A stretch of DNA of 37,051 nt from Falsiroseomonas oryziterrae. Its GTDB lineage: Bacteria; Pseudomonadota; Alphaproteobacteria; Acetobacterales; Acetobacteraceae. The stretch is from assembly GCF_021864505.1 (NCBI RefSeq), contig NZ_JAKJIB010000010.1, positions 1 through 37,051 of the forward strand, given 5' to 3'. Position numbers and translations under genes: made by a program. Shown one piece after another: positions 3,876 through 33,932 of this stretch. Numbering within the stretch: position 1 is the stretch's first letter; every line of letters begins with the position of its first letter. Under the pieces are notes generated by a model that was not told the origin of the DNA, made no database searches, and was given only the letters and a program-made list of their open reading frames with translations.

Positions 3876-4826
<951 letters not shown>

Positions 4827-4860: not shown

Positions 4861-6081
4861 ATGAACTGGCCCCGCCCGGCCTATGGGGCGCCGGAGGGCG
4901 ACGTCGACCCGCCGGTGATCCCGGACATCGGCGATCAGCGCTTCGCGCATGCCCCGAAGATCCCGGCGGCGCAGATTCCCGACGCGCAGCTTCTGGCCAT
5001 CCTCGACCCCTCCAGCGAGGTGACGGGGCTCAGCGCGCGGGTCCGCTTCCCCGGCCTGCTCGAAGGGCTGGAGTGCCGCGCCCGCGCCGGTTTCCTGACC
5101 GGCGCACCGTATCGCGTGCCGGCCGCCGCGTTCTGGGCGGTGCCTCGCCTCCGCCTTCTCCAGGCGCCGCGCGCCGAGGGCATGTGCTTCAGCGCGGACG
5201 GGGCGCTGGTACGCGAGACGCGCGGCAGCCCCCGCGTGCTGCCGGGCAACGACATGTTCCGCTGGGCCGGCGGCGCCGCCTTTCTGAATCGCGAACTCCG
5301 CCCGACCGGCGCGGTGGCGCGTGGGGCGGTCTGCTATGACAGCGCGTCCCGGAACTTCGCGCACCTCATGATGATCATGCTGCCACGCGTCATGCTGGCA
5401 GACGCGACTTTGTCCGAAACGCCGATCCTGCTGCCCGACCTCCCCGACTATCCGGGCGCCGCCATCCGCAACGAACTGCTGTTCCGGCTCGGCGAGGTGC
5501 TGCCGCTGTCGCGCGGCAATTTCTACGCCCCCCTAGGTCACGGCGTCTGGGCCCTCGATGAGGCGCTGGTGCCGTCCGCCGGGTCGTCCCGCTGGGATCT
5601 CGTGCTGCACCCGACGGTCCGAACCGGCTTCGCGCGCATCGCGGCGGAGGCGCTCCGGCGCTGCGCCCGCCTCACAGCGCGCGAATCCACTTGGCCGCGC
5701 CGGATCTACGTCTCGCGACAGGGCGCGACGCGGCGCCGGATCACCAATGGCGAGGAGGCCGAGCGCGTGCTCGTCGCGCGCGGCTTCGAAGCGGTGCAAC
5801 TCGAGCAGCTGGATATCTTCGAGCAGGCCGCGCTCTTCGCCGAGGCGGAGGCCGTGGTCGCGGTGCATGGCGCGGGATTGGCCAACCTGCTGTTCAATGA
5901 CGGGCGTGCGCGCGTGCTGGAACTCTACCCGGCCGGTGCGCCGCAATACCACTTCGCCCTCTGCGCCGCGGCGCAGGGCTGCATCTACGTGCCCCTGGCC
6001 TGCGAGAACCGCTCCAAGCAGCACGACGTCCAGGTGGATCTCAAGGCGCTCGACCGCGCGCTCGACCTCCTGTTCGCCTGA
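4861..6081 (+). CDS. GT61-family glycosyltransferase (subfamily A), stand-alone
   Basis: A 406-residue protein with the GT61/DUF563 signature: SRNFAHLMMIMLPRVML, IYVSRQGATRRRI near residue 281, then FAEAEAVVAVHGAGLANLLF near residue 325. The HGAGL stretch is the conserved nucleotide-sugar site of the family. Known GT61 members include xylosyl- and GlcNAc-transferases. The protein is closely similar along its length to the C-terminal half of the protein at 15186-17126, including runs of shared nucleotides, so the two are recent paralogs. It follows uxs by 34 bases, so UDP-xylose is a reasonable donor guess. There is no clear ribosome-binding site before ATG 4861 and no membrane segment. Family identity is secure, substrate unknown. 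Confidence 0.87.
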   Translation: MNWPRPAYGAPEGDVDPPVIPDIGDQRFAHAPKIPAAQIPDAQLLAILDPSSEVTGLSARVRFPGLLEGLECRARAGFLTGAPYRVPAAAFWAVPRLRLLQAPRAEGMCFSADGALVRETRGSPRVLPGNDMFRWAGGAAFLNRELRPTGAVARGAVCYDSASRNFAHLMMIMLPRVMLADATLSETPILLPDLPDYPGAAIRNELLFRLGEVLPLSRGNFYAPLGHGVWALDEALVPSAGSSRWDLVLHPTVRTGFARIAAEALRRCARLTARESTWPRRIYVSRQGATRRRITNGEEAERVLVARGFEAVQLEQLDIFEQAALFAEAEAVVAVHGAGLANLLFNDGRARVLELYPAGAPQYHFALCAAAQGCIYVPLACENRSKQHDVQVDLKALDRALDLLFA

Positions 6082-6483
6082 CCGGCCGGGTCGCCTGTGG
6101 CGGTCGTGCCCGCCAGCGGCGACAGGCGCTGTCGAGCGCCGCCCCGGGAAGCTCGCGGGCCAACGGGTCGCCCGCGCACCGGGGAGCGCGAGGCGGTGAC
6201 ACGGGCAGCTGCCGGTGAAGCCGGCTCGGATCGCGCCGTCGGTTCTCCGGTGACTCGCCGACAGCAGGATGTCAGCCGACCTCGGCAGCGTCGGCGACAC
6301 GCCGGATGAAACACGGCCTACGCTCGCGCAGCCCGCATTCCGCGGCACTGAGAACACCCTCGCCGCTCGGTCATGCGCAGCCGGCGAGCAGCAGGTCAAA
6401 CAGCATCGCGTGGGGAACGCGAGATTCGGGCCGGTCGCCACTGACGGAGTTCGATGGCCCGATGCCGGTCTGCCCTCCCTGCG
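6082..6483. other. 402-base gap between convergent genes with no intact gene
   Basis: Between the stop of the GT61 gene and the stop of the minus-strand methyltransferase gene there is no credible coding frame. The only recognisable content is a thiolase gene relic at 6211-6290 (listed separately). No U-tract terminator or tRNA was seen. Confidence 0.6.
6211..6290 (-). pseudogene. Relic of a thiolase gene (fragment)
   Basis: The 80 bases align with 8989-9066 inside the intact thiolase gene, in the same orientation, with about 80-85% identity by eye and one single-base gap. Translated on the minus strand it reads DILLSASHRRTDGAIRAGF, against DILLSASHRRTEGEIPAGF at thiolase residues 124-142. 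Similarity fades on both sides, and no start, active-site cysteine region or C-terminal part is present. It is therefore a decayed fragment of a second copy, not a gene. Confidence 0.72.
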
Positions 6484-8214
6484 TCAGAGCGGCGGTGGGA
6501 CGCGGTTGCGCTCCTGCGGGAGCGGGAGGGCGCGAACCTCTGCTCGCGTCGGGGCGAGGGCCTCTCTCAGTTCGGCGGCTTCGGTCGGTGGCACGGCGAT
6601 CCCGTCCTGCACCGACGGCGACCGGAACAGCGCCAAGCCACGCAAGAGTTCCTCGTTCGTGGTCGCGACCGCAAGCGACACGGGAGGCGAGGCGAGCCAA
6701 GTGAAGAAGCCCGTGTAGGACCAGCGGGATTCCGGTCCGACCCGGTGCAGGACGAGCAGCAATGACCCCGAGTAGTAGGCCATCTGATAGGTGCCGCCCC
6801 CCTGCGCACTGATGAAGTGGTGACATCGCGCATAAAGGGCAGACTTGAAGCCGTTGAGGTCCGCCTTCCCGCCCGAAGCGATGTGTTCGGCGTAGAGGGC
6901 ATGAAATTCCAACACCGACGGGAAGCGTGCGAGCACCTCACGGTCTCCCAGATCGCCGTGGGGATCAGCGTCCGAGTCGTAGCCCTCGACGGCTGGCGCC
7001 AAGCCGTGCCGCACATAGACGATTGTATAGTCGCCGCCGAGTGTGGCGAAGATCGCCTCCAGTGCATCGGCAGTGATGTGGTTGACAGGCCGTCCGAACC
7101 ACCACTCGGCGTTGTACTTGTTGTGCACGATCAGCAGCGGCTTCGCAGGATCGGGCCAGCGGCAATGAAGCGAGAAGTCACTGAACAGGCGCCGGAAATC
7201 GGGATACCGGTGCATCGGGCTCGGCGCATAGGTCCCGTCAAAGTCGTCCTCGTTCCGGACCGGCAGAGGCCCGCGCCCAGCGGGTGCGATGAAGCCACGC
7301 GACTTTCGCAGCGGCAAGAAACCCTTGCAGTCGAGATGACGATAGAAGCACTCCATCCCGGGGTAGGACACGACGTAGCGGTCTCGCAGCAGGCCCTGTT
7401 CCGACAGCCAAGTGACGTACGGCAGGAAGACCACCAGCTCGGAGCCGAATTCTCCCTTGTAGCCGATCTTCTCCGGCATCGAGGCAGGATCGAACGTCGT
7501 CTCGGGAAGCGGCTTGTTGAGCCGTATCTTCGGAACGGTAACGACCGGCTCCAGTCGGTGAGTCCCCGTGAAGGTGTCGAAAGCCGCCTTCACTCCTGGC
7601 CACCGGTCGCCGGCGGGAAAATAATCGTCCCCGATCAGCGCACCACCTGCCCGCAGAAGTGGCCACCAAGCGCGCAGATCAGCCTCGACGGAACCAAGAT
7701 CATGGCCTGCGTCGACGTGCAGCATGTCCGCCATAATCCCGCGCTGCCGCAGCAGCACCGCGGCGTTGCCGGAATCAAGCGGCAGGGGCAGCACGAGGTC
7801 CTGAACGTCGGCCTCAAGAACGTTGGCAACGAAGGTGCGGTAGAGCGTCGGATAGCCGTCCTGCGTCTGCAGCGACGGGAACCAGATATCCGACAGCCAG
7901 TTCTCCGAGGAACCGAGCCAGGTGTCCACAGCGAGCACCACGCCATCCACACCATGTTGGCGCAGAAGCTTCGCCATGTGGATCACGGAAGCACCCTTCC
8001 AGACGCCGACCTCGACGATAAGCCGCGGACGCAGTTCCCTGATGGCCTGCTCAAAGGCCGGGTGGTTTGATGCCCAGCCCTGCATGTCCACCCGCGCCGG
8101 GTCCGGGCGCGCATGGCGGAACGGGTCGTTGCCTCGCCAGAGGCGCGCAACAAGCTCCGCCCGCGCGCTGCCTTGGCGCGGCGCCGGCCTTGCGGCCGAT
8201 ACCCCCTGCTCCAT
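6484..8214 (-). CDS. Two-domain protein: class I methyltransferase plus glycosyltransferase-like C-terminal domain
   Basis: A 576-residue protein. Residues ~60-215 form a SAM-dependent methyltransferase of the Methyltransf_24/cephalosporin-hydroxylase-like type: RLIVEVGVWKGASVIHMAK (SAM loop, EVG at 68-70), LHVDAGHDLGSVEADLRAWW, then GGALIGDDYFP. The C-terminal ~330 residues have LLIVHNKYNAEWWFGRPVNH near 357 and HFISAQGGGTYQMAYYSG near 466, a pattern I associate with uncharacterised glycosyltransferases (fucosyltransferase-like), but the assignment is tentative. ATG 8214 follows GGGGGA by four bases, while an in-frame GTG at 8229 lacks such a site. It is the last gene of the peroxiredoxin-to-thiolase run, 27 bases after the thiolase stop. 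Base composition is visibly less GC-rich than its neighbours, suggesting acquisition. Confidence 0.72.
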   Translation of the reverse strand: MEQGVSAARPAPRQGSARAELVARLWRGNDPFRHARPDPARVDMQGWASNHPAFEQAIRELRPRLIVEVGVWKGASVIHMAKLLRQHGVDGVVLAVDTWLGSSENWLSDIWFPSLQTQDGYPTLYRTFVANVLEADVQDLVLPLPLDSGNAAVLLRQRGIMADMLHVDAGHDLGSVEADLRAWWPLLRAGGALIGDDYFPAGDRWPGVKAAFDTFTGTHRLEPVVTVPKIRLNKPLPETTFDPASMPEKIGYKGEFGSELVVFLPYVTWLSEQGLLRDRYVVSYPGMECFYRHLDCKGFLPLRKSRGFIAPAGRGPLPVRNEDDFDGTYAPSPMHRYPDFRRLFSDFSLHCRWPDPAKPLLIVHNKYNAEWWFGRPVNHITADALEAIFATLGGDYTIVYVRHGLAPAVEGYDSDADPHGDLGDREVLARFPSVLEFHALYAEHIASGGKADLNGFKSALYARCHHFISAQGGGTYQMAYYSGSLLLVLHRVGPESRWSYTGFFTWLASPPVSLAVATTNEELLRGLALFRSPSVQDGIAVPPTEAAELREALAPTRAEVRALPLPQERNRVPPPL

Positions 8215-8241
8215 CTGGTCCCCCGACACGCGACGCGACGG

Positions 8242-9420
8242 CTACCCAACCCGCTCCAGGATCGAGCAGTAGTTCGCCACCGCCGCGCCGCCCATGTTGA
8301 ACACGCCGGCGCGGTCCGCCTTCGGCAGCTGCATGTCGCCCGCGGTCCCGGTCAGCTGCATCGCCGCCATGGCGTGCATCGAGACGCCCGTCGCGCCGAT
8401 CGGGTGGCCCTTCGACTTCAGCCCGCCCGAAGGATTCACCGGCAACCGCCCGTCCTTCCGCGTCCAGCCCTCGAGCGCGGCGCGCCCGCCCTGCCCTTCA
8501 GGCGCCAGGCCCATCGCCTCGTATTCGATGAGCTCGGCGATGGTGAAGCAGTCATGCGTCTCGACGAAGGAGAGGTCGGACAGCGACAGCTCGGCCGCAT
8601 CCAGCGCGCGCGCCCAGGCCGCGCGGGCGCCCTCGAAACGGATGATGTCGCGGCCGGCGATCGGCATCATGTCGGTCGCCTGCGCCGTGGCACGGAAGCG
8701 CACCGCCTTGGCCCCGCGCGCGACCATGCCGCGCGCCGTCTCCTCGTCCGTCAGCACCAGCGCCGCCGCGCCGTCCGAGACCAGGCTGCAATCGGTGCGC
8801 TTCAGCGGCCGCGCGACGAAGGGGTTCTTCTCGCTCTCGGCACGGCAGAAGGCGAAGCCGAGGTCCTTGCGCATCTGCGCAAAGGGGTTGGCCACGCCGT
8901 TCGCGTGGTTCTTCGCCGCGATCGCGGCGAGCGCGTCGGACTGGTCGCCATGGCGCTGGAAGTAGGCCTCGGCGATGCGGCCGAAGACGCCGGCGAAGCC
9001 CGCCGGGATCTCGCCCTCGGTCCTCCGGTGGCTCGCAGAGAGCAGGATGTCGCCGACCTCGGCGGTCGGGGTCGCCGTCATCTTCTCCGCCCCGACGACC
9101 AGGGCGAAGCGCCCCCGCTTCGCGGCCAGGAAGTCCAGCGCGCCATGGATCGCGGCCGAGCCGGTGGCGCAGGCATTCTCGTAGCGTGTCGTCGGCTTGA
9201 AGCGCAGTTCCGGCACCGTCTGCAGCAGGAGCGAGGCAAAGAAATCCTGCTTGCTGAAGCCGCCGTTGAACACGCCGACGAAGGCCGCATCGACCTCCGC
9301 CGGCTCGATGCCGGCGTCGTGGATCGCCGAGAGCGCCACGCGGCCGAACAGGCTCTCGATATCGGGATCCTCGAGCTTGCCGAAGGGCGTATGGGCCCAG
9401 CCGACGATGCAAGCGGTCAT
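8242..9420 (-). CDS. Thiolase family protein (acetyl-CoA acetyltransferase-like, SCP-2 thiolase type)
   Basis: A 392-residue thiolase, which condenses or cleaves acyl-CoA. The nucleophile region is YENACATGSAAIHGAL with Cys84. The C-terminal region carries GGLKSKGHPIGATG (catalytic His) and ends VANYCSILERVG, rather than the CxG ending of classical degradative thiolases, so an SCP-2-like thiolase is the better description. AGGAGG stands five bases before ATG 9420. The enoyl-CoA hydratase-like gene lies 12 bases upstream, so the pair likely acts on the same acyl-CoA. An internal 80-base stretch recurs as a relic at 6211-6290. The exact substrate is unknown. Confidence 0.9.
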   Translation of the reverse strand: MTACIVGWAHTPFGKLEDPDIESLFGRVALSAIHDAGIEPAEVDAAFVGVFNGGFSKQDFFASLLLQTVPELRFKPTTRYENACATGSAAIHGALDFLAAKRGRFALVVGAEKMTATPTAEVGDILLSASHRRTEGEIPAGFAGVFGRIAEAYFQRHGDQSDALAAIAAKNHANGVANPFAQMRKDLGFAFCRAESEKNPFVARPLKRTDCSLVSDGAAALVLTDEETARGMVARGAKAVRFRATAQATDMMPIAGRDIIRFEGARAAWARALDAAELSLSDLSFVETHDCFTIAELIEYEAMGLAPEGQGGRAALEGWTRKDGRLPVNPSGGLKSKGHPIGATGVSMHAMAAMQLTGTAGDMQLPKADRAGVFNMGGAAVANYCSILERVG

Positions 9421-9432
9421 GGGGTCCTCCTG

Positions 9433-10227
9433 TCAGCCGTCCCGCCGTGGTGCCCAGGCGGCCCTGCGGCGCTCCCCGAAGCTCGCGATGCCTTCGGCCG
9501 CCTCCTCGCTCGCGGCACGCCGGGCGAAGGCGGCCGCGCCGGCTTCGGCATAGCCCTCCGGCACGACCGGGCCAAGCGCGGCGATCAGCGCCTTGGTTTC
9601 GGCGATGGCACCCGGCGCCCCTTCCAGGACCTCGGCGACCGTGGCGGCCACCGCGGCGTCGAGGTCGGACACCGCGTCGTGCACCAGGCCGATGGCCGCC
9701 GCGGCCTCGGCCCCGATCACGTTGCCTTGCAGGCAAAGCCTGGCGGCGGCGCTGCGGCCCATGCGGCGCGCGAGCCAGGGCAGGATCTGTGCCGGCACCA
9801 GGCCGCGCCGCACCTCGGGCGCGCAGAAACGGGCCGAGGGCGCGGCGAGCGCGACGTCGGCCGCGCAGACGAAGCCGAGGCCGCCGGCGAAGGCGCTGCC
9901 CTCGACCGCGGCGATCACCACCTGCGGCAGGTCGGCGATGGCCTGGAAGCGCGCCCCCATGCGCCGGTTGCGTTCCTGCTGCCGCGCGAGCTTCGTGGCC
10001 CGATCCTCCGGCGCGCCGACCTCCGTCAGGTCGAGCCCGGCGCAGAAATGCCCGCCGGCCCCGGAGATCACCAGCACGCGCGCGACCTTGTCGTGCTTGA
10101 GTTCCGCCAGCAGCGCGTCGATCCGTGCGACGAGCGCCTCGTCCATCGCGTTGCGGCGCGACGGGCGGTTCAGGACGGCGCGCACCACGGCGCCGTCGCG
10201 GCTGACCAGCAGTTCGGCCTCGCTCAT
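9433..10227 (-). CDS. Enoyl-CoA hydratase/isomerase family protein
   Basis: A 264-residue crotonase-fold protein acting on acyl-CoA. It shows LNRPSRRNAMD, the oxyanion-hole segment GAGGHFCAGLDL, and VEGSAFAGGLGFVCAADVAL followed by FCAPEVRRGLVPAQ, whose Glu sits where a crotonase catalytic acid is expected. The ATG at 10227 overlaps the stop of the deacylase gene (ATGA at 10227-10224), which fixes the start and indicates translational coupling. The same frame stays open further upstream only because of GC bias. It probably works with the adjacent thiolase. Reaction type (hydratase, isomerase or hydrolase) cannot be decided. Confidence 0.9.
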   Translation of the reverse strand: MSEAELLVSRDGAVVRAVLNRPSRRNAMDEALVARIDALLAELKHDKVARVLVISGAGGHFCAGLDLTEVGAPEDRATKLARQQERNRRMGARFQAIADLPQVVIAAVEGSAFAGGLGFVCAADVALAAPSARFCAPEVRRGLVPAQILPWLARRMGRSAAARLCLQGNVIGAEAAAAIGLVHDAVSDLDAAVAATVAEVLEGAPGAIAETKALIAALGPVVPEGYAEAGAAAFARRAASEEAAEGIASFGERRRAAWAPRRDG

Positions 10228-11228
10228 GCCGCGACATCCGTGCCGAGGTGGAACAGGCAGTCGCCGCGCGCCGTCATGCCGGGCCAGCGCATGCACAGCA
10301 CCAGCCCGTCGCGCTCGAAGGCGACCTCCAGCGGCGCGCGCCAGGGCACCTCGGTCTGGTGGATGAGGCCCGCAGGCTGGCCGGCCTTCACTTCGGCGCC
10401 CGGCTCGACCAGCGGCTCGAAGACGCCGGGGTCGGGCGCATGCAGGAAGTAGTCGGCGCCACCCACCTCGACGAGGCGCGTCGCGCGCGGCGTGCGGCCG
10501 TCCCAGTCGAGATCGGCGACGCCCAGATGCCGCAGCGCGCCGGCCAGCCCGCGTTCCGCGACCCGGATCGCCGCCGGCGTCGCATGGCCGCCGCCGCCGA
10601 GTTCCGTCCCGATCTGCGGGATCCCCCGCCGCGCGCAGGCATCCGACAGCGTCCCGCCCCAGAGCCCGCCCGGCCGCACGATGTAGGAGACCGGGGCGCC
10701 GAAGGCGCGGAGCAGCGCGAGCGAGCGCTCGAACACCGTCGTGTCCTCGCCGCGCCGCGCCAGGGCAGAGGGCGTGTACATCAACGAGGAACCGCCCGAA
10801 TGCAGGTCGATCGCCGCATCGCACATCGGCAGCACCACGCTGTCGATGAAGTGGGCGATCTGCTGGGTCGGCGTACCGTCGGCGACGCCGGGGAAGCTGC
10901 GGTTGAGGTTGCCCGCATCGAGCGGGCTCACGCGGCGGCCGGCGCGAGCTGCCGGGAAGTTGGCCGCCGGCAGGATGATCAGGCGCCCGCTCACCTGCCC
11001 TGGCTCGACCTCCCGGATCAGCCGCCCGAGCGCGATCTGCCCCTCATACTCGTCGCCGTGGTTGCCGGCCGAGAGCAGCACCGTCGGCCCAGTCCCGCGC
11101 GCGATCACCGCGACGGGGATCGGGATCCAGCCATAGGCGCTCTCATGCGTCGAATGCGGCAGGCGCAGGAAACCGGTGCGCTTGCCGGAACCCTCGAGGT
11201 CGATGTCGCAGAGGATGCGGCTGGCCAT
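10224..11228 (-). CDS. Succinylglutamate desuccinylase/aspartoacylase family deacylase
   Basis: A 334-residue M14-like zinc amidohydrolase that would remove an acyl group from an N-acyl amino acid. Zinc ligands are visible as SAGNHGDEYEG (His57, Glu60) and AIDLHSGGSSL (His143), with the family motif AGNLNRSFPG in between. The C-terminal beta domain (residues ~240-334) has PDPGVFEPLVEPGAEVKAGQ. The layout resembles DoeB-type N-acetyl-diaminobutyrate deacetylases as well as general AstE/AspA relatives, and no choice between them is possible here. GGAGG stands eight bases before ATG 11228. Its stop overlaps the start of the enoyl-CoA hydratase-like gene by four bases. Confidence 0.85.
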   Translation of the reverse strand: MASRILCDIDLEGSGKRTGFLRLPHSTHESAYGWIPIPVAVIARGTGPTVLLSAGNHGDEYEGQIALGRLIREVEPGQVSGRLIILPAANFPAARAGRRVSPLDAGNLNRSFPGVADGTPTQQIAHFIDSVVLPMCDAAIDLHSGGSSLMYTPSALARRGEDTTVFERSLALLRAFGAPVSYIVRPGGLWGGTLSDACARRGIPQIGTELGGGGHATPAAIRVAERGLAGALRHLGVADLDWDGRTPRATRLVEVGGADYFLHAPDPGVFEPLVEPGAEVKAGQPAGLIHQTEVPWRAPLEVAFERDGLVLCMRWPGMTARGDCLFHLGTDVAA

Positions 11229-11271
11229 GCCGAAAGCCTCCGTCGCGCCCCCGGTCCCGTCAAGGATGCCC

Positions 11272-11925
11272 TCAGGCGCGCTCCCGGCTCTCCGCCTTCA
11301 CGCGGTCGAGTTCGGCGCGCAGCCCCGCGATCTCGGCGCGCAGCGCGGCAAGCTGCTCGCCGACCGGGTCCTCGGTGACGTCGCGCAGGCCGTAGCCGAT
11401 CCCCTCGTCCTCGCAGGGCGCGCCTTTCGGTGGCCGCGCGGGGATGCCGACCACGGTGCACCCTGGCGCGACGGGGTTCACCACCACGGCATTGGCGCCG
11501 ATCCGTGCGCCATGCCCGACCAGGATGGGGCCGAGGACCTGCGCCCCGGCGCCGATCGTCACATGGTCCTCCACCGTCGGATGGCGCTTGCCCGGCTGGC
11601 CGGACAGGCCTCCGAGGGTGACGCCGTGATAGATCAGCACGTCGTCGCCGATCTCCGCCGTCTCGCCGATCACCACGCCCATGCCGTGGTCGATGAAGAG
11701 CCGTCGCCCGATCCGCGCCCCCGGATGGATCTCGATGCCCGTCAGCATCCGCGCAAGATGGGAGGAGAGCCGCGCGAGGCCGCGCAGCCCGAGCCCCCAC
11801 AGCGCATGCGACAGCCGGTGCCACAGCACGGCGTGCACGCCCGCATAGCAGAAGACGCTCTCGAACCAGCCGGGCCGAGCGGGATCGCGGGCGCGCACGT
11901 TGCGGGCGAGTTCCACGAGTTCCAT
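11272..11925 (-). CDS. cysE: Serine O-acetyltransferase, short EpsC type
   Basis: Cytosolic enzyme making O-acetylserine from serine and acetyl-CoA, the first step of cysteine synthesis. The 217 residues show an N-terminal helical part ([20 protein letters not shown]), then a left-handed hexapeptide-repeat helix with [38 protein letters not shown] and [15 protein letters not shown], all typical of CysE. It lacks the long N-terminal domain of the E. coli enzyme, as in the EpsC subtype. A charged helix at the C terminus ([19 protein letters not shown]) could form a coiled coil. GGAGGG stands just before ATG 11925. It follows cysK by 13 bases, so the two consecutive steps are co-transcribed. Confidence 0.94.
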
Positions 11926-11938
11926 CGAACCCTCCGCG

Positions 11939-12958: not shown

Positions 12959-12962
12959 GGCG

Positions 12963-13616: not shown

Positions 13617-13845
13617 GTTGCCTCTCCTCAACCGCAGGCCCGGCCCGGACAGATAAGGACGATACGGGCGTCGTTTCCAGGCGGCGGGCCGGTCGTTCCC
13701 CTGGCGCAGAAGATCATGCATGCTCGGCCCGCATGGCGACGCGCGCCGCTTTTCGTGAGCGAGGGCCAGGGGAGACGAAGTTGGCTGTCGCAGGCATTGC
13801 CGAGGGCAAGAGTTTTTTCGCCGCAACTGTCCCGGACCAGGCGCG

Positions 13846-19327: not shown

Positions 19328-19330
19328 CCT

Positions 19331-21031: not shown

Positions 21032-21061
21032 CCGCGCCCCTCCCGTTTATCTCACATTGCG

Positions 21062-22540
21062 ATGAACTCATTGCACCCGCGGCTCGAGGCGCTGGGGCCG
21101 GCGGTCTGCCTGCCGACCGTCGGGATGCGGTTGCCGCTGCGCCTCTCACCCGCGGCCGGGTCGGCGGAAGTCGCCCTGACCCTGTATTGGCAACTCGACG
21201 CCGAGTCCGCGCCACGACGGGTGGACCGGATCACCGCCCTGGCCAGCCAGGAGGCGGACGGGCTGGTGTTCGAGGCGCTCGTCCCGCGCGGCGACCTGCC
21301 GGGCGGTCGTTACCGGCTGTCGGTCACGGCCGATATGCCGGACGGCGCGGCGACAACCGACCTCGTCGCCGAGGTATGGGATTTCGCCGCGCCGTCCACC
21401 GTGGCGCGGCTGTCGCCTGCGATCCTGCGCAGCGTCGCGCTCCGCGACCTGCCGCGGGCCGGCGAGCATGCGGCGTGGCCGGGCGACACCCGGCTGGTCA
21501 TGCGTGAGGCCGAGCCCCGTGCCGGCACGAGCCTCGACCCCCGAGACCTGCGCCAGATGGCGGAGGCGGGTGCCCTCGCGAAACGGGTCGTGCGCGGCTA
21601 CCAGGTGCCGGAGCTCTCCGCCGCGCTGCTGGAGGAGGCAGTGGTGTTCGGTCCACAGAACGTGGTGGCGAGCCGCCTGGGCGTTCTGGAGGACAGCTGG
21701 CGCGGCGCCAAGACGATGCGGCCGGAGGAACTCGCGCTCGGGCCCTTCCGCACGCCGCGCGCGCCGAAGCACCTCGATGGCACGCCCGTGCTGACGCAAC
21801 GTACGGCCTATCTCGCGCGCAAGGCGAACTACTACCACTTCCACGCCGAGCACATTGCCGCACTTCTCCAGGTCGAGTTGCTGCGGAAGGCCCATCCCGG
21901 GCTCGACCTCTTCGCCCTCGTGCCGGACTACGCCCCGATGCATGCCGAGAGCGTGGCCTTGCTCGGCGCAGACCTCGGGCCGGCCGTCACGCTGGACGGC
22001 TCGGACTTCTCCGCCGCGCGGCTCGTCTTTCCGAGCGCCGTGCTGGGCAATGCAGAGCGCGCCAACGACCCGCTGATGGCCGAGGCGCTGCAGCGCATTC
22101 GCCGCAACGCGCTGGCGGGCGGGACGGCGCATGGCGCGCGTGCGGTCTATGTCTCGCGACTGGATGCGACGAGCCGGCGCATGCGGAACGAGGACCGTCT
22201 CGTGGAGGCGCTCGCATCGCGCGGCGTCGGGATCTTCACTGCCGGTGGGCGGAGCTATCGCGAGCAGGTTCTGTGCTTCGCCGACGCACGGGTCGTGATC
22301 GGGCCGCATGGGGCCGGGCTGACGAACATAGGTTTCGCGGCGCCGGGCGCGACGCTGGTCGAGATCTTCCAGGCGAGCTTCACCCTGCCATTCTATCCGC
22401 GCCTCGCGGCGCTGCTGGGTTGCCCTTACCGCTGCTTCACCCAGCGTGATGGGGACGAGGCCGGAGATCCCGGCAGCTGGACGCTCGATCTCGATGCCTT
22501 CCTCGCCTTCCTGGACCCGATCCTGGCCAGGACGGCGTGA
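21062..22540 (+). CDS. GT61-family glycosyltransferase (subfamily B) with N-terminal beta domain
   Basis: A 492-residue protein. Residues ~1-110 look like a beta-sandwich (CLPTVGMRLPLRL, then alternating strands such as GGRYRLSVTADMPDG). The GT61 catalytic region has ANYYHFHAEHIAALLQVELL, VYVSRLDATSRRMRNEDRL near 360 and VVIGPHGAGLTNIGFAAPG near 412, ending WTLDLDAFLAFLDPIL. It aligns from its first residues to its last with the C-terminal ~490 residues of the 1156-residue protein at 26073-29543, which marks the boundaries of a complete transferable GT61 unit. ATG 21062 begins the conserved region; no good ribosome-binding site precedes it. Donor and acceptor are unknown. Confidence 0.86.
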   Translation: MNSLHPRLEALGPAVCLPTVGMRLPLRLSPAAGSAEVALTLYWQLDAESAPRRVDRITALASQEADGLVFEALVPRGDLPGGRYRLSVTADMPDGAATTDLVAEVWDFAAPSTVARLSPAILRSVALRDLPRAGEHAAWPGDTRLVMREAEPRAGTSLDPRDLRQMAEAGALAKRVVRGYQVPELSAALLEEAVVFGPQNVVASRLGVLEDSWRGAKTMRPEELALGPFRTPRAPKHLDGTPVLTQRTAYLARKANYYHFHAEHIAALLQVELLRKAHPGLDLFALVPDYAPMHAESVALLGADLGPAVTLDGSDFSAARLVFPSAVLGNAERANDPLMAEALQRIRRNALAGGTAHGARAVYVSRLDATSRRMRNEDRLVEALASRGVGIFTAGGRSYREQVLCFADARVVIGPHGAGLTNIGFAAPGATLVEIFQASFTLPFYPRLAALLGCPYRCFTQRDGDEAGDPGSWTLDLDAFLAFLDPILARTA

Positions 22541-22551
22541 TGGTCGTCCGG

Positions 22552-22596: not shown

Positions 22597-22597
22597 A

Positions 22598-24814
22598 TCA
22601 CCGTCCGATATGCGTCGCTGTGCGGGGCTCGCCCGGGTGGCCCCAGACGAAGGTGCCGAACAGTCGCATGGCCGCCGGCAGTCCCGCGCGCGATTCGACG
22701 TAGCGGTAGCGGTTGTTGACCGTCCGCTCGACGCCGCCCGCACCGAAATTCTCCTGGTCGGCGGCGGTACTCTCGGAGATCAGCGGCCGAATGACGCGGA
22801 GCAGGTAGTCGCGGCGGATGATCTGTGGGTTGTTGGAGAAGGTCGGCGTGCGGCAAAGCCGGCTTTCGCGATCCCGCCTGCCCTGGGTCAGAATGCTGTC
22901 GTAGCCGGCGACGACGTTCGATCGGCGGGCGTATCGGATGTAGAAGGCATCCGGCCGCGCCAGCATCGTCTCCACCACGCGCGAGAGCGGCGGACACTCC
23001 GGCTGGAACTCCAGGTCGTGCTCGATCAGCAGCACGAGGTCGGTCCTGGCCCGCGCCATGGCGTCGAGCCATTGCCGCCTGAGCCCATTGCCGTGATTGA
23101 CCACGAGCCCGAGGCCGGCCTCCGCGCACCAGGCTTCGAGATTGCGGCGGTAGATCGCGTTCTCCTCGGTCTCTCGATGGTCGTAGAGCACTGTGATCGG
23201 GAAGTCCGGTCGCAACTCCATCCGCTCGCGCATGGTCATCACCGTGCGCTGGATCAGGCCGAGACCGGGCCCGGCGAGGTCGCCGAAGACCTGCAGCTTC
23301 TCCTTGCGGTGGAGATGCGTGAAGACGAAGGCCTCCACGGCAGGCTGGACGGGCGCCGGCGCCAGCGCATCGGCGGCATGTGCAAGCAGCGTCGCGAGCA
23401 GTGGATCCCCGGACGCCTCGGGCAGGTCCAGCGCCGCCTCGAACCCTGCCTTGGCGGCCGCGAGGTCCCCGGCGTCGAGCGCGACACAGGCCTCGCCGAG
23501 CAGGGCCGGCAGCATAGCGGGCCGCTCCGCCCGCGCCGTGCCGTAGAACAGGCCGGCCCGCTCCGGCAGATCGAGCAACAGCAGCGCGTCACCCAACAAA
23601 CGCCAGATCTCGGCGGCGTCGCGCTCGGCGGCGATCTCCTCGCGGAGGCGTTCGGCCTCGGTGACAAAGAAATGGAGCGCGCCGCGGTCGCGCACCGTGA
23701 TCGCCGCGGCAAGTCCACCCCGGACCGCCTCGGCGCGGAGCGGCGCGACCGCGCCCTCGTGCAGTGCACGCTGGTAGATCTTCAGGCGGTCGGACCAGCT
23801 CAGCAGGACCTTGGACCGCGCCGCGGCGAGTTCGGCGCCCAGCGGAAGCACGCCCCCCGCCATGGCGAGCAGCCTCTCCCGCAAGGTCCGGGCCTGCTCC
23901 ACGTGATCGCGGCCGCGAGCGGCAGCGGTGAGATAGCGCTCGGCCACGGCGGCGAAGCCCGCGCGGTCGGTGCTTAGATCGACTTCGGCGAGCGCCGCCT
24001 CGAACATCGCAAAGCCCGCTTCTGTGTCGCCGGCGGCGCAAAGCGCCTCCGCGCGCATCAGCGTCACGGCATGGCGCGCCGGCGTCCCCTGGGCGTCGTC
24101 GAAGCAGGTCGCGAAATCCAGCAGGCGCGGCAGCTGGAGGGCGCCATAGGCGGCGTTGGCGTGATGGCGGTCGCTCGGTTCGCCGAATTCGGGCCGCAGG
24201 AAGCTCGCCCGCGGCAGGCCCTGATACGCCTCGATCGGCGCCCGCAGCACGGGGATGCCGAGGCCGGCGAGTTCCGCATCGATCGCACCGCGCGCGAGCC
24301 GGTCGATCTCGAGCACCGCCTCCGGCGCTCCCGTCTTTTTCACCCCGATATCATCGCGCCGCACCGGCGGGGATTCCACGACGAAGAAGCGTACGCCGGC
24401 GCGGCGAAGGTCGGCGAGCCAGGCGAAGGCATGGCGGAAATGCTCGCGCACGATGGCCGTGACGGCGGCGTCGCTGACGGGCTGGAGCCCCTCCGCGCAG
24501 CAGCGCCAGGGCCGGTGCGTCCGCCAGGTCGCGCTCCAGAGCAGCAGGCTGGTGGAGAAGGGCAGCGATATCGCGAAGACGTCGCCCTCCGGTCGCATCA
24601 CGGCGCTGCCGCTGACGGCCAGGAAGCGTCGGGCCATGTTCTCGTCGAGAAAGCCGACGCCGCCGGGCGCAAGGTGATGGAACGGCTTGAGCGTGGCCGG
24701 GAAGGAGAACAGCTTGACGATCGGCACCGCGTCCGGCCAGGCGCCGGCAGGCAAGGCGCGCCGGCCCAAAGCCAGCGACACGACATGCGAATCGCCGAGC
24801 ACATGGAGCCTCAT
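22598..24814 (-). CDS. Three-part protein: SGNH-like domain, helical repeats, C-terminal glycosyltransferase-like domain
   Basis: A 738-residue protein. The N-terminus MRLHVLGDSHVVSLALG carries a GDSH block (residues 7-10), and EPSDRHHANAAYG near 213 supplies a D-x-x-H block, together suggesting an SGNH-type esterase or acyltransferase fold. Residues ~240-490 are Ala/Leu/Glu-rich helices resembling TPR repeats (ALCAAGDTEAGFAMFEAALA). From ~490 on, FVFTHLHRKEKLQVFGDL, PITVLYDHRETEENAIYRRN and LVLLIEHDLEFQPECPPL suggest a GT-A-like glycosyltransferase with an HD motif. The start ATG overlaps the stop of the GSCFA gene (ATGA, 24814-24811), which rules out the longer open frame to the right. Domain calls are by motif only; the SGNH call is the firmer one. 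Confidence 0.68.
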   Translation of the reverse strand: MRLHVLGDSHVVSLALGRRALPAGAWPDAVPIVKLFSFPATLKPFHHLAPGGVGFLDENMARRFLAVSGSAVMRPEGDVFAISLPFSTSLLLWSATWRTHRPWRCCAEGLQPVSDAAVTAIVREHFRHAFAWLADLRRAGVRFFVVESPPVRRDDIGVKKTGAPEAVLEIDRLARGAIDAELAGLGIPVLRAPIEAYQGLPRASFLRPEFGEPSDRHHANAAYGALQLPRLLDFATCFDDAQGTPARHAVTLMRAEALCAAGDTEAGFAMFEAALAEVDLSTDRAGFAAVAERYLTAAARGRDHVEQARTLRERLLAMAGGVLPLGAELAAARSKVLLSWSDRLKIYQRALHEGAVAPLRAEAVRGGLAAAITVRDRGALHFFVTEAERLREEIAAERDAAEIWRLLGDALLLLDLPERAGLFYGTARAERPAMLPALLGEACVALDAGDLAAAKAGFEAALDLPEASGDPLLATLLAHAADALAPAPVQPAVEAFVFTHLHRKEKLQVFGDLAGPGLGLIQRTVMTMRERMELRPDFPITVLYDHRETEENAIYRRNLEAWCAEAGLGLVVNHGNGLRRQWLDAMARARTDLVLLIEHDLEFQPECPPLSRVVETMLARPDAFYIRYARRSNVVAGYDSILTQGRRDRESRLCRTPTFSNNPQIIRRDYLLRVIRPLISESTAADQENFGAGGVERTVNNRYRYVESRAGLPAAMRLFGTFVWGHPGEPRTATHIGR

Positions 24815-25905
24815 CGCGCGCTGGCCAGTTCCGGATCGATCTCGACCTCGTCGCAGATGACCCGCATCGCCTCGGCCTCGTCGGCATCCTCCGCCTCGGC
24901 AGGGCCAGCCGCGCTCGGCAGTGCCTCGACCGGAACGCCAAGCCCGCAGGCCCCGAGGAAGCAAGCCATGACGCGCTCCACCGCCCCCGCCCGCACATTG
25001 CGGCGGTCTGCCTCGAAGCAGTCGCCGGAAAGATGCGACGTCACGAGTTCGAAGGAGGGAAAGTAGTCCACGCCGGGATCGCCCGCGGCGACCTCGGCGG
25101 CCGCCGCGCGGAGCACGGCCTTCGCCTGGGCGGTCGCCACGACGACGTGGGCATCGGTGGCGGTGGCGACCAGCGGCACCGGCGAGACCGTCAGCAGCAG
25201 CCGGAGCGCCGGGTTGACCTCCCGCCCCAGCGCGAGCACGGCGCGGAGATCCTCGACGACCTCGGCGACGGTGAGATTGCGGAAGATGTGGCGGGCGGGG
25301 TCGAACTCGCCGGCCACGGTGCCCGGGCAGACGGGATAGGCGTGCCCTTCGACGGCGTTCATCCAGCATTCCGTCAGGCCCAGCGTGAAGACCAGGAGGC
25401 CGGCCTGCTCGATCAGGCGGCGGATCGCGGCATGGTGGGCGCGCCGCAACGCCCGCATCTCCTCTTCCGAGCCGAATCCACCGGGCTCGATGGCGGGGCG
25501 CATCGGATCGAACCAGCGACCGCCCTGCTCCCAGGCTTCCTCGATGGCGCGGCGGCCGAGCGCGGCTTCCACCAGATTGCGAAGCTGGCGGGCGGTGTAG
25601 ATGTTGCCGTATCGCGCGGAGTAGAGGCCGTAGCCGAAATCGGCCCAGCGATCCGGCGGTAGAAGTCCCGGCGCGGGCTCGACGTCGAGCAGGTTGCAGC
25701 CGGCCTTCCGCAGGGCGCGAGTGACGTGCTGGGCGAAGCAACTGCCCGCCGTGGCGATCGGCGTGTCGCGGTCGATGGAGAACTTCGGGCGGTAGATATC
25801 TCCGGCCTCGCCCGCCGCCCAGGCAGCAGCGGTCCGGCGCCAGAAGTGGCGGTCGGGCAGCCTGGCATAGGGATGCTCGTGTCGCACGGGGCGATCGGGG
25901 CTCAT
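24811..25905 (-). CDS. GSCFA domain protein
   Basis: A 364-residue protein with the family-naming motif: IATAGSCFAQHVTRAL, GSCFA at residues 54-58. Further family-like stretches are FGYGLYSARYGNIYTARQL, FTLGLTECWMN, LLTVSPVPLVATATDAHVVV and VDYFPSFELV. GSCFA proteins belong to the SGNH hydrolase superfamily and have been linked to glycan or exopolysaccharide biosynthesis, but the activity is not settled. The serine of the motif is the likely nucleophile. It overlaps the next gene, itself SGNH-like, by four bases (ATGA), so the two products are probably made together. It is divergent from the large gene at 26073, with 167 bases between. Confidence 0.88.
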   Translation of the reverse strand: MSPDRPVRHEHPYARLPDRHFWRRTAAAWAAGEAGDIYRPKFSIDRDTPIATAGSCFAQHVTRALRKAGCNLLDVEPAPGLLPPDRWADFGYGLYSARYGNIYTARQLRNLVEAALGRRAIEEAWEQGGRWFDPMRPAIEPGGFGSEEEMRALRRAHHAAIRRLIEQAGLLVFTLGLTECWMNAVEGHAYPVCPGTVAGEFDPARHIFRNLTVAEVVEDLRAVLALGREVNPALRLLLTVSPVPLVATATDAHVVVATAQAKAVLRAAAAEVAAGDPGVDYFPSFELVTSHLSGDCFEADRRNVRAGAVERVMACFLGACGLGVPVEALPSAAGPAEAEDADEAEAMRVICDEVEIDPELASAR

Positions 25906-26072
25906 GCGGCTGTCTTAACAATGCGCCCGAGCCGCGACCAGCACCTGGCGGTACGCCTTGATCACCGGCGGCGCTTGACAGGCGATGCACAGCGGAAGTT
26001 GCCGATGGCACGCACGGCGGGGCAATCGGTTCGGGTCGATGAAGTGCCTGACGAGGACGTGCCTGGGTCCTC

Positions 26073-29000
26073 GTGACCCGCTCCATCGCAACCTATCAAC
26101 CGGGTGGCCGAGGGGGCACGGACTGCACTCGCAACATCTTGCCGATCACCGTGGGCCCGGCCACGATTTGGGTTGAAGCGACGGTGGCAGTAGTCTGCGG
26201 AGAGTGCCCCACTTTGGAACGCCTGCTGACATGGTTCGGCACGCTGGTCTACGAGGACGCGGTGTCGGCTCTGTGCCATGGCGAAGCCGGCACGGCGCCG
26301 CGTAACTTCTTGGCCCCTGCGCAAGCGGAGACGGAGGCGGACGGGTATGTCCGGCTCCGCCGCGACGGCGTGTTGCTGGAGGCAGCCGAGGATGGCTCGC
26401 TGAGGCCAACGTTGGACCCACGCACGCCGCAGACGCGCTTCCTGAGAATCGCCGACGACCGCTTGCGCGCTCTGCTCGGCCTCGGCGCCCAGGATTGGAC
26501 CCTGCATGACGGCCAGCACGTCAGGGCACAGGCGATACGACTCGGCCCCGGCTTTGCGCTCGAGTTCGGCCCCTGGCGCGTCGCCCTCGATGCTGATCCC
26601 AATACCTGCATCATCGAGAGCCAGGATGGCACCGTGCGGTGTTTGCGACTGGTCCACGATGATTGGCGCATAGGTCAGGCCCGAGCCTACCGGCCGCTAA
26701 TCTATAGCTGCGCCTTCGGGTCCGACACGCAGTTCCGCCAACTGGAACTGTTCCTCCGCTCCATCTCCGAGTTTGGCGCGTATGACGGCCATATCCTGCT
26801 GGTCACCGACCGTGATGAAGCGGCGCTACGTCAACTGATCCCGACCGGCTTCGCCGACAAGATGGTCTTGGTACGGAAGCGCCCTGATTCGGTCTTTGCC
26901 ATGCTCACGGCACGATATCAGATCGACGATCTACCCATCGAACGCTTCCAACCGGTCCTCTACCTCGACAGCGATGTGATCTGCGATGCGCCGATCGGGC
27001 CGTTGTTCGACGCCCTGAACTGCCGGGAGGGCTTTCACGCGGTGGCCGAATACCCTGGCCGCAGCGTGGCGGAAGCCGGCAAGCTGCGACCCTTCTTCGG
27101 CGCCTTCATCTTCAACAAACATCCGCCGAAGGGCGCTGCTCCGCAGTGCCTTAATTCTGGTTCCTTCGGCTTCGCGGATAAGGCAACGGCCGCGCCTGTA
27201 TTTCGCCAGATGCTGACGAGCCTTCGCGCCTATGCCGCGACGGAGCCGGATTTCAATGCTGCGATCGGTGATCAGCCTTTCTTCAACTATGCCTTGCAAA
27301 CGATCACGCGTCCCGACACGGACGTGCTCAACGGCTTCATCCGGACGCTGGGCAACCGCCAACCAGACCTGAGCGCGCCTCCCATCGGCCTCGTCCATTT
27401 CAACTCCGGCGTTGGGTACAGGGGCAAGCCAGCGGCGATGGCGGATTATCTTGCGCATTTGTCGCGCACGGGCCGTCCCGCCGCGCCAGCCATCCGGCTC
27501 AATCGCTCCATTCCCGGCCAGATGACCGACGTTGAGTTGCTGCGATTGATCGAGCTTGCACAAGCGGTTCCGCCCGGCGGCGTGATCGTTGAGGTCGGCA
27601 GCCTGTATGGCCTGTCAGCCTGGCACATGGCGAAGCACTGCTCGCCCGGGACGCGGGTCTTCTGCATAGATCCGTGGCAGCGTGTGAAGTGGATCATCCA
27701 CGGTGTCGAAGGCCCGCAAAGCGCACCGCCGTTCGGGCGCGCGGCTTTCGATGCCTTCACTGCGGATTGCGACAACATCGTTGCGATTCAGGGCTACAGC
27801 CCCGAGGTCGCAAGGGATTGGTCGTTGCCGGTCGATCTCTTTGTCGATGACGCCGTCCACACGAATCCGGCACTCGCCGAGAACATCGCGTTCTGGTCGG
27901 AACATGTGAAGCCCGGAGGCGTGATTGCCGGGCATGACTATGCCCGCAGATGGCCGGATGTGATCACAGAGGCCGAAAAACTTGCAGCGCGCTATGGCAC
28001 GCGTGTCGAGTGCTTCGACTCTCTCTGGTCGGTCAAGAAACCCGATCCCGACGCCGTGGTGACCGCGCCGCTCCGACTGGAGGCGACGGCCCCCGCCGTC
28101 TCGCTGCCTGGCGTCGGCATGCGTCTGCCGCTTCGCTTGGTCGGAACTCTACCGGGCCCGCCGCCGGGCTCCGTGTCCGTTGATCTGACTTGGCCTGGCG
28201 GGCGCGCCTCGACAACTGCCCCGCTTCGCCTGAGTGAGCATGGGCATGAGCTCGCAGTGGAGTTGCCGGCTGGTGAGCTCCCGTCCGGTGAAACCGAGCT
28301 TTCCTTGGTTGTGCGAGACCACGGAGGCACGGCACTCGGCAGCCTCGGTCTCTCGGCCATGGTACCTCGATTCGAGACGCTCCCGCTCCCCCGCGCCCTG
28401 CCGGCCGCAGCGCTGCGTCGCTTTGTCCTCGGCTCGCTGCCGGAGGCCCGGCCAGGTGACCGGCTGCATGGCGACCTTCGCCTCATTCTGCGCGACGCCG
28501 TGGCGAAGCCGTGCACGCCGCTCGATCCGCTGGACGCCGAGCGAATGGAGAAAGCCGGCGGACTGCTCAAACGATTCACCCGCCCTTACTCCGAACCGCC
28601 GCTCGAAGCGGCGGTTATCGAGGGTGGAGCTGTTCTCGGAACAGCCGGCCTGGTCGCCTCGCCCCGGCTCGGGTTGCTCGACGAAAGTTGGCATGCGGGT
28701 AACCTCAGGATTCCGGCCGAGGCAGGGCTGGCGCCTTTCCTGACGCCGATGCAGGCCGCCCGCGAGGTGCCGACGGCAATCGTCACCCATTGCGGCACCT
28801 ATGCCGGCAACAGGACCGACCATTACCATTTCCATGATGAGCACCTCGGCACGCTGCTACTTGCCGAGCAACTCCGCCAACACTTGCCGGAGGCCGAAGT
28901 GTTGGTGCCTCCGTACACCGCCTTCCACGCCGAGGCTGTCGGCCTGCTCGCTGCTGACCTTGGCGTCACCCGGACCCTGGCTACGGAACCAGTGCTCACC

Positions 29001-29543
29001 GCCGGCCACGCTGTCTTTCCTACGACGCTCGTCATGGCCCGCGACCGCTCGGTTGACCTGATGACGGCGAAAGCCATGCAGCGCGTCCGCGCCAGCGTAC
29101 TGCGCAGCGGACACCCGCCTCAGGGGGAACGCGTGGTCTACGTCTCACGGCTCGGCAGCGCGAGGCGGCGCATGAGAAATGAGGCCGCGCTGATGTCGCG
29201 CATGGAAGCGCTGGGCGGACGCGTTTTCGACGCGCGCGAACTCGGCTACCGCGAGCAGGTTCTCGCCTTCACCGAAGCGCGCCTCATCGTCGGGCCGCAC
29301 GGCGCGGGGCTGTCGAATATCGGTTTTGCGCCGCCGGGTTGCTCGATCGTCGAGATTTTTCAATCCAGCTTCGTGTGGCCGCAGTTCGCTCGGCTCGCAG
29401 GGCTGCTCGGCCACCGCTACCGTTGCTTCACCCAGGCCGAGACAGCCCCCGACCCTGCCGAGCCAGACAGCTGGACGCTCGACATCGACGCCTTCCTCGC
29501 CTTCCTCGACCCGATCCTCGAAAAGGCGGCGCGGGCCGCCTGA
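26073..29543 (+). CDS. Three-enzyme fusion: GT8-like glycosyltransferase, class I methyltransferase, GT61 glycosyltransferase
   Basis: A 1156-residue protein. Residues ~205-430 resemble a GT8-like transferase: LIYSCAFGSDTQFRQLELFL, VLYLDSDVICDAPIGPLFDA with DSD near 300, and LNSGSFGFA. Residues ~495-650 are a methyltransferase: GVIVEVGSLYGLSAWHMAKH, CIDPW, LFVDDAVHTNPALAENIAFW, GGVIAGHDYARRWPDV. Residues ~670-1156 are a full GT61 unit of subfamily B (VSLPGVGMRLPLRL, DHYHFHDEHLGTLL, VVYVSRLGSARRRMRNE, IVGPHGAGLSNIGFAPPG). The first ~190 residues are unrecognised. The start is uncertain: GTG 26073 has no close ribosome-binding site, and a TTG at 26214 after GGAGAG is an alternative. The first two-thirds are less GC-rich than neighbours (about 65% in one 60-base line checked against 78% in the transporter gene), suggesting transfer. 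Confidence 0.83.
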   Translation: MTRSIATYQPGGRGGTDCTRNILPITVGPATIWVEATVAVVCGECPTLERLLTWFGTLVYEDAVSALCHGEAGTAPRNFLAPAQAETEADGYVRLRRDGVLLEAAEDGSLRPTLDPRTPQTRFLRIADDRLRALLGLGAQDWTLHDGQHVRAQAIRLGPGFALEFGPWRVALDADPNTCIIESQDGTVRCLRLVHDDWRIGQARAYRPLIYSCAFGSDTQFRQLELFLRSISEFGAYDGHILLVTDRDEAALRQLIPTGFADKMVLVRKRPDSVFAMLTARYQIDDLPIERFQPVLYLDSDVICDAPIGPLFDALNCREGFHAVAEYPGRSVAEAGKLRPFFGAFIFNKHPPKGAAPQCLNSGSFGFADKATAAPVFRQMLTSLRAYAATEPDFNAAIGDQPFFNYALQTITRPDTDVLNGFIRTLGNRQPDLSAPPIGLVHFNSGVGYRGKPAAMADYLAHLSRTGRPAAPAIRLNRSIPGQMTDVELLRLIELAQAVPPGGVIVEVGSLYGLSAWHMAKHCSPGTRVFCIDPWQRVKWIIHGVEGPQSAPPFGRAAFDAFTADCDNIVAIQGYSPEVARDWSLPVDLFVDDAVHTNPALAENIAFWSEHVKPGGVIAGHDYARRWPDVITEAEKLAARYGTRVECFDSLWSVKKPDPDAVVTAPLRLEATAPAVSLPGVGMRLPLRLVGTLPGPPPGSVSVDLTWPGGRASTTAPLRLSEHGHELAVELPAGELPSGETELSLVVRDHGGTALGSLGLSAMVPRFETLPLPRALPAAALRRFVLGSLPEARPGDRLHGDLRLILRDAVAKPCTPLDPLDAERMEKAGGLLKRFTRPYSEPPLEAAVIEGGAVLGTAGLVASPRLGLLDESWHAGNLRIPAEAGLAPFLTPMQAAREVPTAIVTHCGTYAGNRTDHYHFHDEHLGTLLLAEQLRQHLPEAEVLVPPYTAFHAEAVGLLAADLGVTRTLATEPVLTAGHAVFPTTLVMARDRSVDLMTAKAMQRVRASVLRSGHPPQGERVVYVSRLGSARRRMRNEAALMSRMEALGGRVFDARELGYREQVLAFTEARLIVGPHGAGLSNIGFAPPGCSIVEIFQSSFVWPQFARLAGLLGHRYRCFTQAETAPDPAEPDSWTLDIDAFLAFLDPILEKAARAA

Positions 29544-33923: not shown

Positions 33924-33932
33924 GGCCCGATC

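Follow-up and report, generated by a model that had tools for sequence, protein, structure and literature searches.

We analysed the 37,051-base contig NZ_JAKJIB010000010.1 of Falsiroseomonas oryziterrae (the window, which is contig C2 in its entirety, from a 4.63 Mb draft genome of 735 contigs). It carries six modules of glycosyltransferase family 61 (GT61), here numbered m1 to m6 from left to right. The modules sit in two separate inserted blocks about 7 kb apart, and the single cluster put forward in the original prediction for this DNA is not favoured. Block 1 (2.75-8.24 kb) comprises a GnT-like glycosyltransferase (W2859), a putative UDP-xylose synthase (UXS), the GT61 module m1 and a methyltransferase, and block 2 (14.8-29.6 kb) holds m2 to m6. 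Both blocks are probably glycan-decoration gene sets that were acquired within a conserved chromosomal neighbourhood, and their product would be a strain-specific, methylated and probably xylose-containing surface polysaccharide.

Two blocks inserted into a conserved neighbourhood

The window DNA was compared with that of 14 genus mates and two genomes of another genus, and 16 stretches from the 14 mates were aligned. The mates keep, whole or in part, the order IspDF, a conserved non-coding element, thiolase/enoyl-CoA hydratase/AspA, CysE/CysK, peroxiredoxin, DUF2891, tRNA-Arg and ShlB, without glycosyltransferase genes. At site 1, the gap between the element and the thiolase gene, the window has 5,495 bp, compared with 1 bp in G008, 10 in G012, 12 in both G013 and G014, 56 in G005, 72 in G010, 80 in G011 and 149 in G006; the gap of G004 measures 2,098 bp and holds a chemoreceptor gene. 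The element was undetected in the other five mates: IspDF directly adjoins the thiolase gene in G002 and G007, the two are 2.5-2.9 kb apart in G003 and G009, with other genes in the interval, and G001 has a rearranged order. Site 2, from DUF2891 to tRNA-Arg, spans 14.8 kb in the window and 1.1 kb in G003, 1.8 kb in G006, 2.0 kb in G001 and 2.6 kb in G009. Where DUF2891 has no match, the distance from CysK or peroxiredoxin to the tRNA is 0.3 kb in G011, 1.3 kb in G002, 1.7 kb in G008 and 2.1 kb in G007. The tRNA is elsewhere or the order different in G004, G005, G010, G012 and G013, and the contig of G014 ends. The glycosyltransferase genes of site 1 are missing from all nine comparable mates (eight of them with at most 149 bp) and those of site 2 from all eight, and no GT61 profile match was found among the genes called in the mates' gaps.

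The segment that separates the blocks (8242-14829) encodes thiolase, enoyl-CoA hydratase, AspA/AstE, CysE, CysK, peroxiredoxin and DUF2891 proteins, assigned with Pfam and NCBIfam. These genes are kept in the genus mates and lie outside the system; the thiolase gene has 77-78% DNA identity to Roseomonas plasmids. Because the segment puts conserved non-glycan genes between m1 and m2, the proposed cluster resolves into two blocks. Composition also deviates as it does in genomic islands, except in W2859 and UXS: the GC content at third codon positions (GC3) is 0.76-0.89 in nine inserted genes and 0.88-0.96 in 15 others (rank test p 8e-5, or 0.0015 when W2859 and UXS are counted as inserted).

The gaps of some mates contain unrelated genes (chemoreceptor, DUF2254, spore-photoproduct-lyase-like and nitroreductase-like), and others contain glycan genes: site 2 of G008 has an FkbM methyltransferase, and a third gap of G013 has GSCFA and WcbI. 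The neighbourhood is therefore variable, with glycan genes among what it takes up. The GSCFA and WcbI genes of G013 (L266, 6437-8364) lie between CysE and AspA, a third variable slot in the same neighbourhood.

Six GT61 modules of two subfamilies

All six reading frames are present at the starts originally given, and PF04577 scores 51.7-73.5 bits in every one of them against a Pfam cut-off of 27 bits; a search of the whole draft genome returned exactly these six and no others. In block 1, m1 (4861-6081, plus strand; 68.4 bits, and placed by the tree described below) is a stand-alone protein of subfamily A. Block 2 contains a second GT61-A and four GT61-B modules, with the GT61-A and two of the GT61-B joined to methyltransferase domains. 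An FkbM methyltransferase (PF05050, 44.6 bits) precedes the subfamily A module in m2 (15186-17126, plus; PF04577 73.5 bits). The called frame of m3 (17102-19327, plus) overlaps that of m2 by 25 bp and encodes FkbM (40.7 bits), a beta domain and GT61 of subfamily B (66.9 bits), the B unit being residues 261-737. A beta domain also precedes the subfamily B module in m4 (19331-21031, minus; 51.7 bits and motif read-out) and in m5 (21062-22540, plus; 70 bits), and in m6 (26073-29543, plus; 1156 amino acids (aa)) a GT8-like module and Methyltransf_24 stand before the beta domain and GT61-B. The fusions were correctly described for FkbM, which is over the cut-off in m2 and m3 (PF05050/TIGR01444), and for a methyltransferase in m6 (Methyltransf_24), but the "GT8-like" module is under the Pfam cut-off (PF01501 16.0 bits against 24.3, E 0.0095) and is GT8-like only.

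The division into two subfamilies is borne out: m1 and m2 share 63% of residues over 380 aa, identity among the B members ranges from 32% to 43% over 244-509 aligned positions (m5 and m6, 43% over 497), and A aligns with B only around the HGAGL core. From the sequence patterns originally proposed, VSR for all modules and GFAxxG for subfamily B, m4 departs in reading YVAR and GFAARD. An alignment of 52 GT61s that includes the six modules has seven invariant columns, with H259, R366, R372 and the HGA of HGAGL among them. The repeated B unit is about 490 aa long and extends beyond GT61 alone, its first ~110 residues forming the beta domain. An AlphaFold2 model of m5 (52 aligned sequences; predicted local distance difference test score (pLDDT) 82.3) has a core that matches POMGNT2, also of GT61 (Foldseek E 5e-10; VIA Z 17.6, root-mean-square deviation 5.2 over 288 residues, 13% identity), and so predicts for m5 the GT-B fold of the solved GT61 structures. 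The N-terminal beta domain is possibly Ig-like, although its Z under 8 against Ig-like domains, in a low-confidence region (pLDDT about 56-76), is of a level that can reflect merely a common arrangement.

Phylogeny and origin of the modules

Two trees were built, one of 174 GT61 domains and a more careful one of 61, both with many long branches. In the 61-domain tree A and B are distant GT61 clades. The four B modules form a clade with one B gene of G323, a genome of genus g4 (98 in the larger tree, 99/96 in the smaller), in which m3 branches first, followed by the G323 gene (100/91), m4 (100/77) and the m5/m6 pair (100/96). Because the G323 gene branches inside the window's four, at least one B duplication predates the split from the G323 copy. 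Subfamily A groups with genes of G323, G017 and G345 (100/100), with m1 and m2 as sisters (97/78). The domain tree that the original prediction called for thus recovers the expected grouping of the B modules and the sisterhood of m1 and m2, but sets the two subfamilies far apart.

Relatives in the family Acetobacteraceae were sought in 397 genomes, the window genome (G000) included, taken from a larger group. Full-length A relatives occur in three of the 396 others, and the best B match is that of G323, the remainder reaching at most 94 bits; all lie away from this position. The idea of a local expansion was to fail if the modules belonged to unrelated GT61 clades and if, for each clade, many genomes had a single-copy orthologue at this position. 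The clades are indeed distant, but the relatives are rare and elsewhere.

No full-length relative of m6 was found in the 396 other genomes, with two candidates scored per genome. Its GT8-like module has a stand-alone relative of 430 aa in genus mate G007 (43% over 426 aa), its Methyltransf_24 module one of 202 aa in G362 (63% over 188 aa), and its GT61-B unit a stand-alone counterpart in m5. Reshuffling is supported because the three modules have separate relatives, and the two FkbM fusions look independent because just 48 of 162 aligned residues (30%) agree between the FkbM domains of m2 and m3. Duplication and reshuffling therefore stand, in the form of sisters within each subfamily and separately related parts of m6, but not as the history of one local array: the comparison of domain and gene order finds the fused parts standing alone elsewhere, and the empty sites show two insertions.

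W2859, UXS and GT61-A as neighbours

W2859 (2859-3860, plus) appears to be a GT-A type glycosyltransferase with weak resemblance to the GnT-I/MGAT2/POMGNT1 group. A profile of 30 members of its family matched MGAT2 (E 0.0022) and POMGNT1 (E 0.0041) in the PDB, and sub-threshold Pfam matches with E up to 0.1 were to GT2 in 19 of the 30, to MGAT2 in nine and to GNT-I in six; E120 and D122 are invariant in the family. A single-sequence structure prediction was unusable (pLDDT 34.6), and the profile search was used in its place. UXS (3876-4826, plus), of the short-chain dehydrogenase/reductase (SDR) family, is predicted by its close annotated relatives to be a UDP-glucuronate decarboxylase, or UDP-xylose synthase: the gene has 77-82% DNA identity to plasmid genes annotated as UDP-glucuronic acid decarboxylase. 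The genome has a second copy on contig C123. W2859, UXS and m1 are consecutive, separated by 15 bp and 34 bp.

Full-length GT61-A (at least 378 aligned query residues in the lists) and W2859 orthologues (at least 58%) occur in the same four of the 397 genomes, G000, G017, G323 and G345, and are neighbours in all four, with at most five and four candidates per genome scored in the W2859 and GT61-A searches, respectively. A further 44 genomes have weaker W2859 homologues (at most 46%), and 22 genomes beyond the four gave shorter GT61-A matches, the longest covering 274 (G313) and 245 (G363) query residues, both outside the tree. The pair of GnT-like glycosyltransferase and GT61-A is thus also found in two other genera, and UXS is adjacent in three of the four genomes (G000, G017 and G323). 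The window's right end carries a GT4-type gene, and the first part of a homologue of that gene (68% over 118 aa) adjoins the pair in G345. Plant GT61 enzymes use UDP-xylose or UDP-arabinose; these donors, together with the neighbouring UXS, make xylose the likely donor sugar and suggest that GT61-A transfers it.

How unusual is the locus?

The 14 genus mates searched have 0-3 GT61s each, and 248 of the 397 family genomes have at least one, with up to 11 per genome. Among the matches listed for the 54 family genomes with at least four GT61s, the window's six in 24.7 kb are the most within 25 kb, and none of the other 53 genomes has more than four in 25 kb; the runners-up are G130, with four in 3.9 kb, and G254 and G230, with three each. 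Cluster sizes were counted by eye among the matches listed, and clusters are undercounted where draft contigs are fragmented. Beyond the family, four GT61s lie within about 5 kb in Heliobacterium mobile and in a Paenibacillaceae metagenome-assembled genome, and three lie in a row in Heliobacterium chlorum, Paenibacillus sp. J31TS4 and Geitlerinema sp. At the loci L140 and L130 (Heliobacterium) and L124 (Paenibacillus), a UXS gene is found near a run of three to four GT61 genes.

Fusions, too, occur elsewhere: in 20 chosen long GT61 proteins (19 from the family and one from Heliobacterium), the family's GT61s were found joined to GT2-type, Methyltransf_24 and FkbM domains, and double GT61 proteins were seen as well. 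An open frame of 1204 aa in G230 (C168, 9352-12252) has three GT61 matches. The density and modularity of the window are extreme but not unique. The earlier view that such an array had not been described holds in so far as the PMC full texts searched yielded no paper on a bacterial GT61 array and none pairing GT61 with FkbM, but not beyond that: tandem GT61 loci are reported for monocots (PMC6297846), and runs of three to four occur in other bacteria.

Other genes and landmarks

Block 1 ends with a Methyltransf_24 protein (6484-8214, minus; PF13578 E 1.3e-16) whose C-terminal half matches no known family. The methyltransferase part resembles, at 43-45% identity, the C-terminal end of W2859-like proteins encoded by G139 and G270. 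In these genomes a W2859-like glycosyltransferase and such a methyltransferase share single reading frames of 633 and 685 codons, and the one-frame fusions tie the two window genes together. Block 2 includes a GSCFA-family protein (24811-25905, minus; PF08885 159 bits) and a protein (22598-24814, minus) that weak sub-threshold matches would divide into an SGNH-like N-terminus, a TPR-like middle and a GT2-like C-terminus; the GT2 match has E 0.0073, the TPR model has E 0.00077 and is far under its cut-off, and the SGNH assignment was made by eye from a GDSH motif.

On the right, block 2 is bounded by tRNA-Arg(TCT) (29655-29731, minus; ARAGORN and Rfam RF00005), which is kept in the mates. Integration at this tRNA was considered, and the sole repeat, a 12-base inverted match at 31753, was rejected as evidence. 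Further right, 32224-37051 encodes KdsD, KdsB, KdsA and an NAD-dependent epimerase, as well as a GT4-type glycosyltransferase of which only the first part precedes the contig end. Homologues of the latter in G004 and G012 are 1929 aa long, with three GT4-type stretches in the one scanned, and lie near an epimerase and W2859 paralogues. At the other end, 1132-2490 encodes a 452-aa protein without a Pfam match; several genus mates have homologues of 35-53%, located close either to this site or to UXS genes.

The left landmark of block 1 is the conserved non-coding element (2628-2746, minus), which is conserved in nine genus mates, is paired in tandem in G010 and has one copy in this genome. It contains TGGCACG-N4-TTGC at 2732-2746, both boxes being invariant in 11 aligned copies, which we take to be a sigma-54-like promoter. 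Some 105 nt lie downstream, ending in a strong GC hairpin with a T-rich end that resembles a terminator (fold z -3.95). With up to one mismatch the pattern is expected 0.97 times per shuffled window, and its weight comes through conservation only. The element matched no Rfam family at gathering score and is a candidate sigma-54-dependent small RNA beside block 1.

Discussion

In the working that we propose, UXS would convert UDP-glucuronate to UDP-xylose, W2859 would place a sugar on a cytosolic surface-glycan precursor and GT61-A would then add xylose. The GT61-B enzymes, with their beta domain before a POMGNT2-like GT-B core, would add further residues, and the FkbM and Methyltransf_24 domains would O-methylate the added sugars, fusion coupling transfer with capping. 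The GSCFA and SGNH proteins may alter ester groups. Genes outside the blocks would provide export and chain polymerisation, and some of them are plausibly the glycan genes near the contig's right end. We infer that the product is a methylated, variable glycan.

Several observations weigh against this reading. The window has no recognisable gene for a flippase, polymerase or ligase, which makes the acceptor glycan a guess. W2859 and UXS have host-like GC3 values of 0.93 and 0.92. No integrase was found among the window genes scanned (31822-32148 lay outside the scan and 1132-2490 had no match) and no direct repeat of the tRNA-Arg of at least 12 bases. Thresholds chosen after the fact and the lack of a family-wide link between GT61 and UXS count against the donor step. 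The co-occurrence of GT61-A and W2859 supports the cassette with a p of about 1e-9, but with thresholds set after the lists had been viewed and no correction for kinship. G017 and G323 belong to one genus, leaving few independent cases of UXS linkage, and in G345 the cassette contig is only 4.1 kb long and UXS is on another contig. UXS is also common, being carried by 17 of 18 genomes searched (in two copies by G000), and a strong form of the idea that it marks the cassette specifically was rejected on these grounds. UXS proteins 79-82% identical lie at other places in four mates, and UXS may have been native to the genome before it became part of the cassette. Among 37 GT61 stretches fetched from other family genomes, that of G323 is the one with UXS, and none of the other 36 has it. 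Across the best 80 of 227 confirmed places in named genomes, found with a profile of six full proteins (m5 first), a UXS of at least 45% identity overlaps the GT61 frame or lies within 3,558 bp of it in 13 loci, a figure without a control set. Donor specificity itself is not readable from sequence.

We consider it unlikely that, as the original prediction held, repeated tandem duplication and domain shuffling at this place produced a single GT61 array. Sister modules do lie inside the window (m1/m2 with 63% identity over 380 aa, m5/m6 with 43% over 497), but A and B belong to distant clades, the FkbM domains of m2 and m3 share only 30% identity, and a G323 gene falls within the window's B set (100/91); two insertion sites 7 kb apart, empty in mates, already weaken the array. 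An assembly or binning artefact that joined foreign contig pieces into the genome is very improbable: the draft has 735 contigs, but outside both blocks this contig follows the genus order, from IspDF and the element through thiolase to DUF2891 and on to tRNA-Arg with ShlB and the Kds genes.

There is a small chance that the enzymes glycosylate a secreted or surface protein, such as a two-partner adhesin or flagellin, in place of a polysaccharide. POMGNT2, the solved GT61 structure closest in fold, has a glycoprotein as its substrate (its entry titles name a mannosyl-peptide acceptor), a gene for a ShlB-type outer-membrane transporter lies 0.35 kb beyond m6, and 22598-24814 has a TPR-like segment. 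However, ShlB adjoins tRNA-Arg in G006, G008 and G011, mates free of the glycosyltransferase blocks, and was rejected as a member of the system; the window has no recognisable TpsA-like or flagellin gene; and G345 has W2859, GT61-A and a multi-GT4 type gene side by side, as expected in polysaccharide loci. Acquired gene sets for decorating a surface polysaccharide are thus the reading we favour. A bolder version is less probable: that the GnT-like glycosyltransferase, UXS and GT61-A are a hitherto unrecognised three-gene cassette for xylosylation, which can be transferred, supplies the donor sugar itself and draws on a toolkit of GT61-B/methyltransferase fusions, the two nearby sites serving as interchangeable slots that rewrite the surface glycan.

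Little was found on bacterial GT61 enzymes in the literature searched. A GT61 gene adjoining a predicted UDP-xylose synthase in a compact locus gives a direct donor hypothesis, one locus offers six natural GT61 variants of two subfamilies, and the fusions predict which methyltransferase is paired with which transferase. If the favoured reading is right, the locus would supply bacterial GT61 xylosyltransferases to test and a view of how glycan-decorating enzymes are exchanged at fixed sites.

Among known systems, the monocot GT61 tandem clusters share with this locus a tandem expansion with an inverted member, in a family that PMC6297846 ties to xylan synthesis; those are plant genes, whereas here two distant subfamilies occur with methyltransferase and GT8-like fusions. 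The Vibrio sulfated-capsule cluster (PMC11641403) likewise has a GT61 gene within a capsule locus, but only one in its glycosyltransferase table, and that paper calls the exact functions of the glycosyltransferases unknown. The eukaryotic GT61 enzymes POMGNT2 and EOGT share the GT-B fold and an HGAGL-type region (Z 17.6 for the m5 model against POMGNT2), but they are protein-linked-glycan enzymes with 12-15% identity, and the window's proteins have an extra N-terminal beta domain. The locus also resembles a further kind of system, the variable biosynthesis island for surface polysaccharide (lipopolysaccharide or capsule). Here the two blocks are a few kb apart and dominated by GT61, with no export or polymerase genes recognised in the window, but gene content that varies at one site among relatives, deviating composition and many glycosyltransferases and methyltransferases are common to both, and the locus looks like an extreme case of a known kind, the variable glycan locus.

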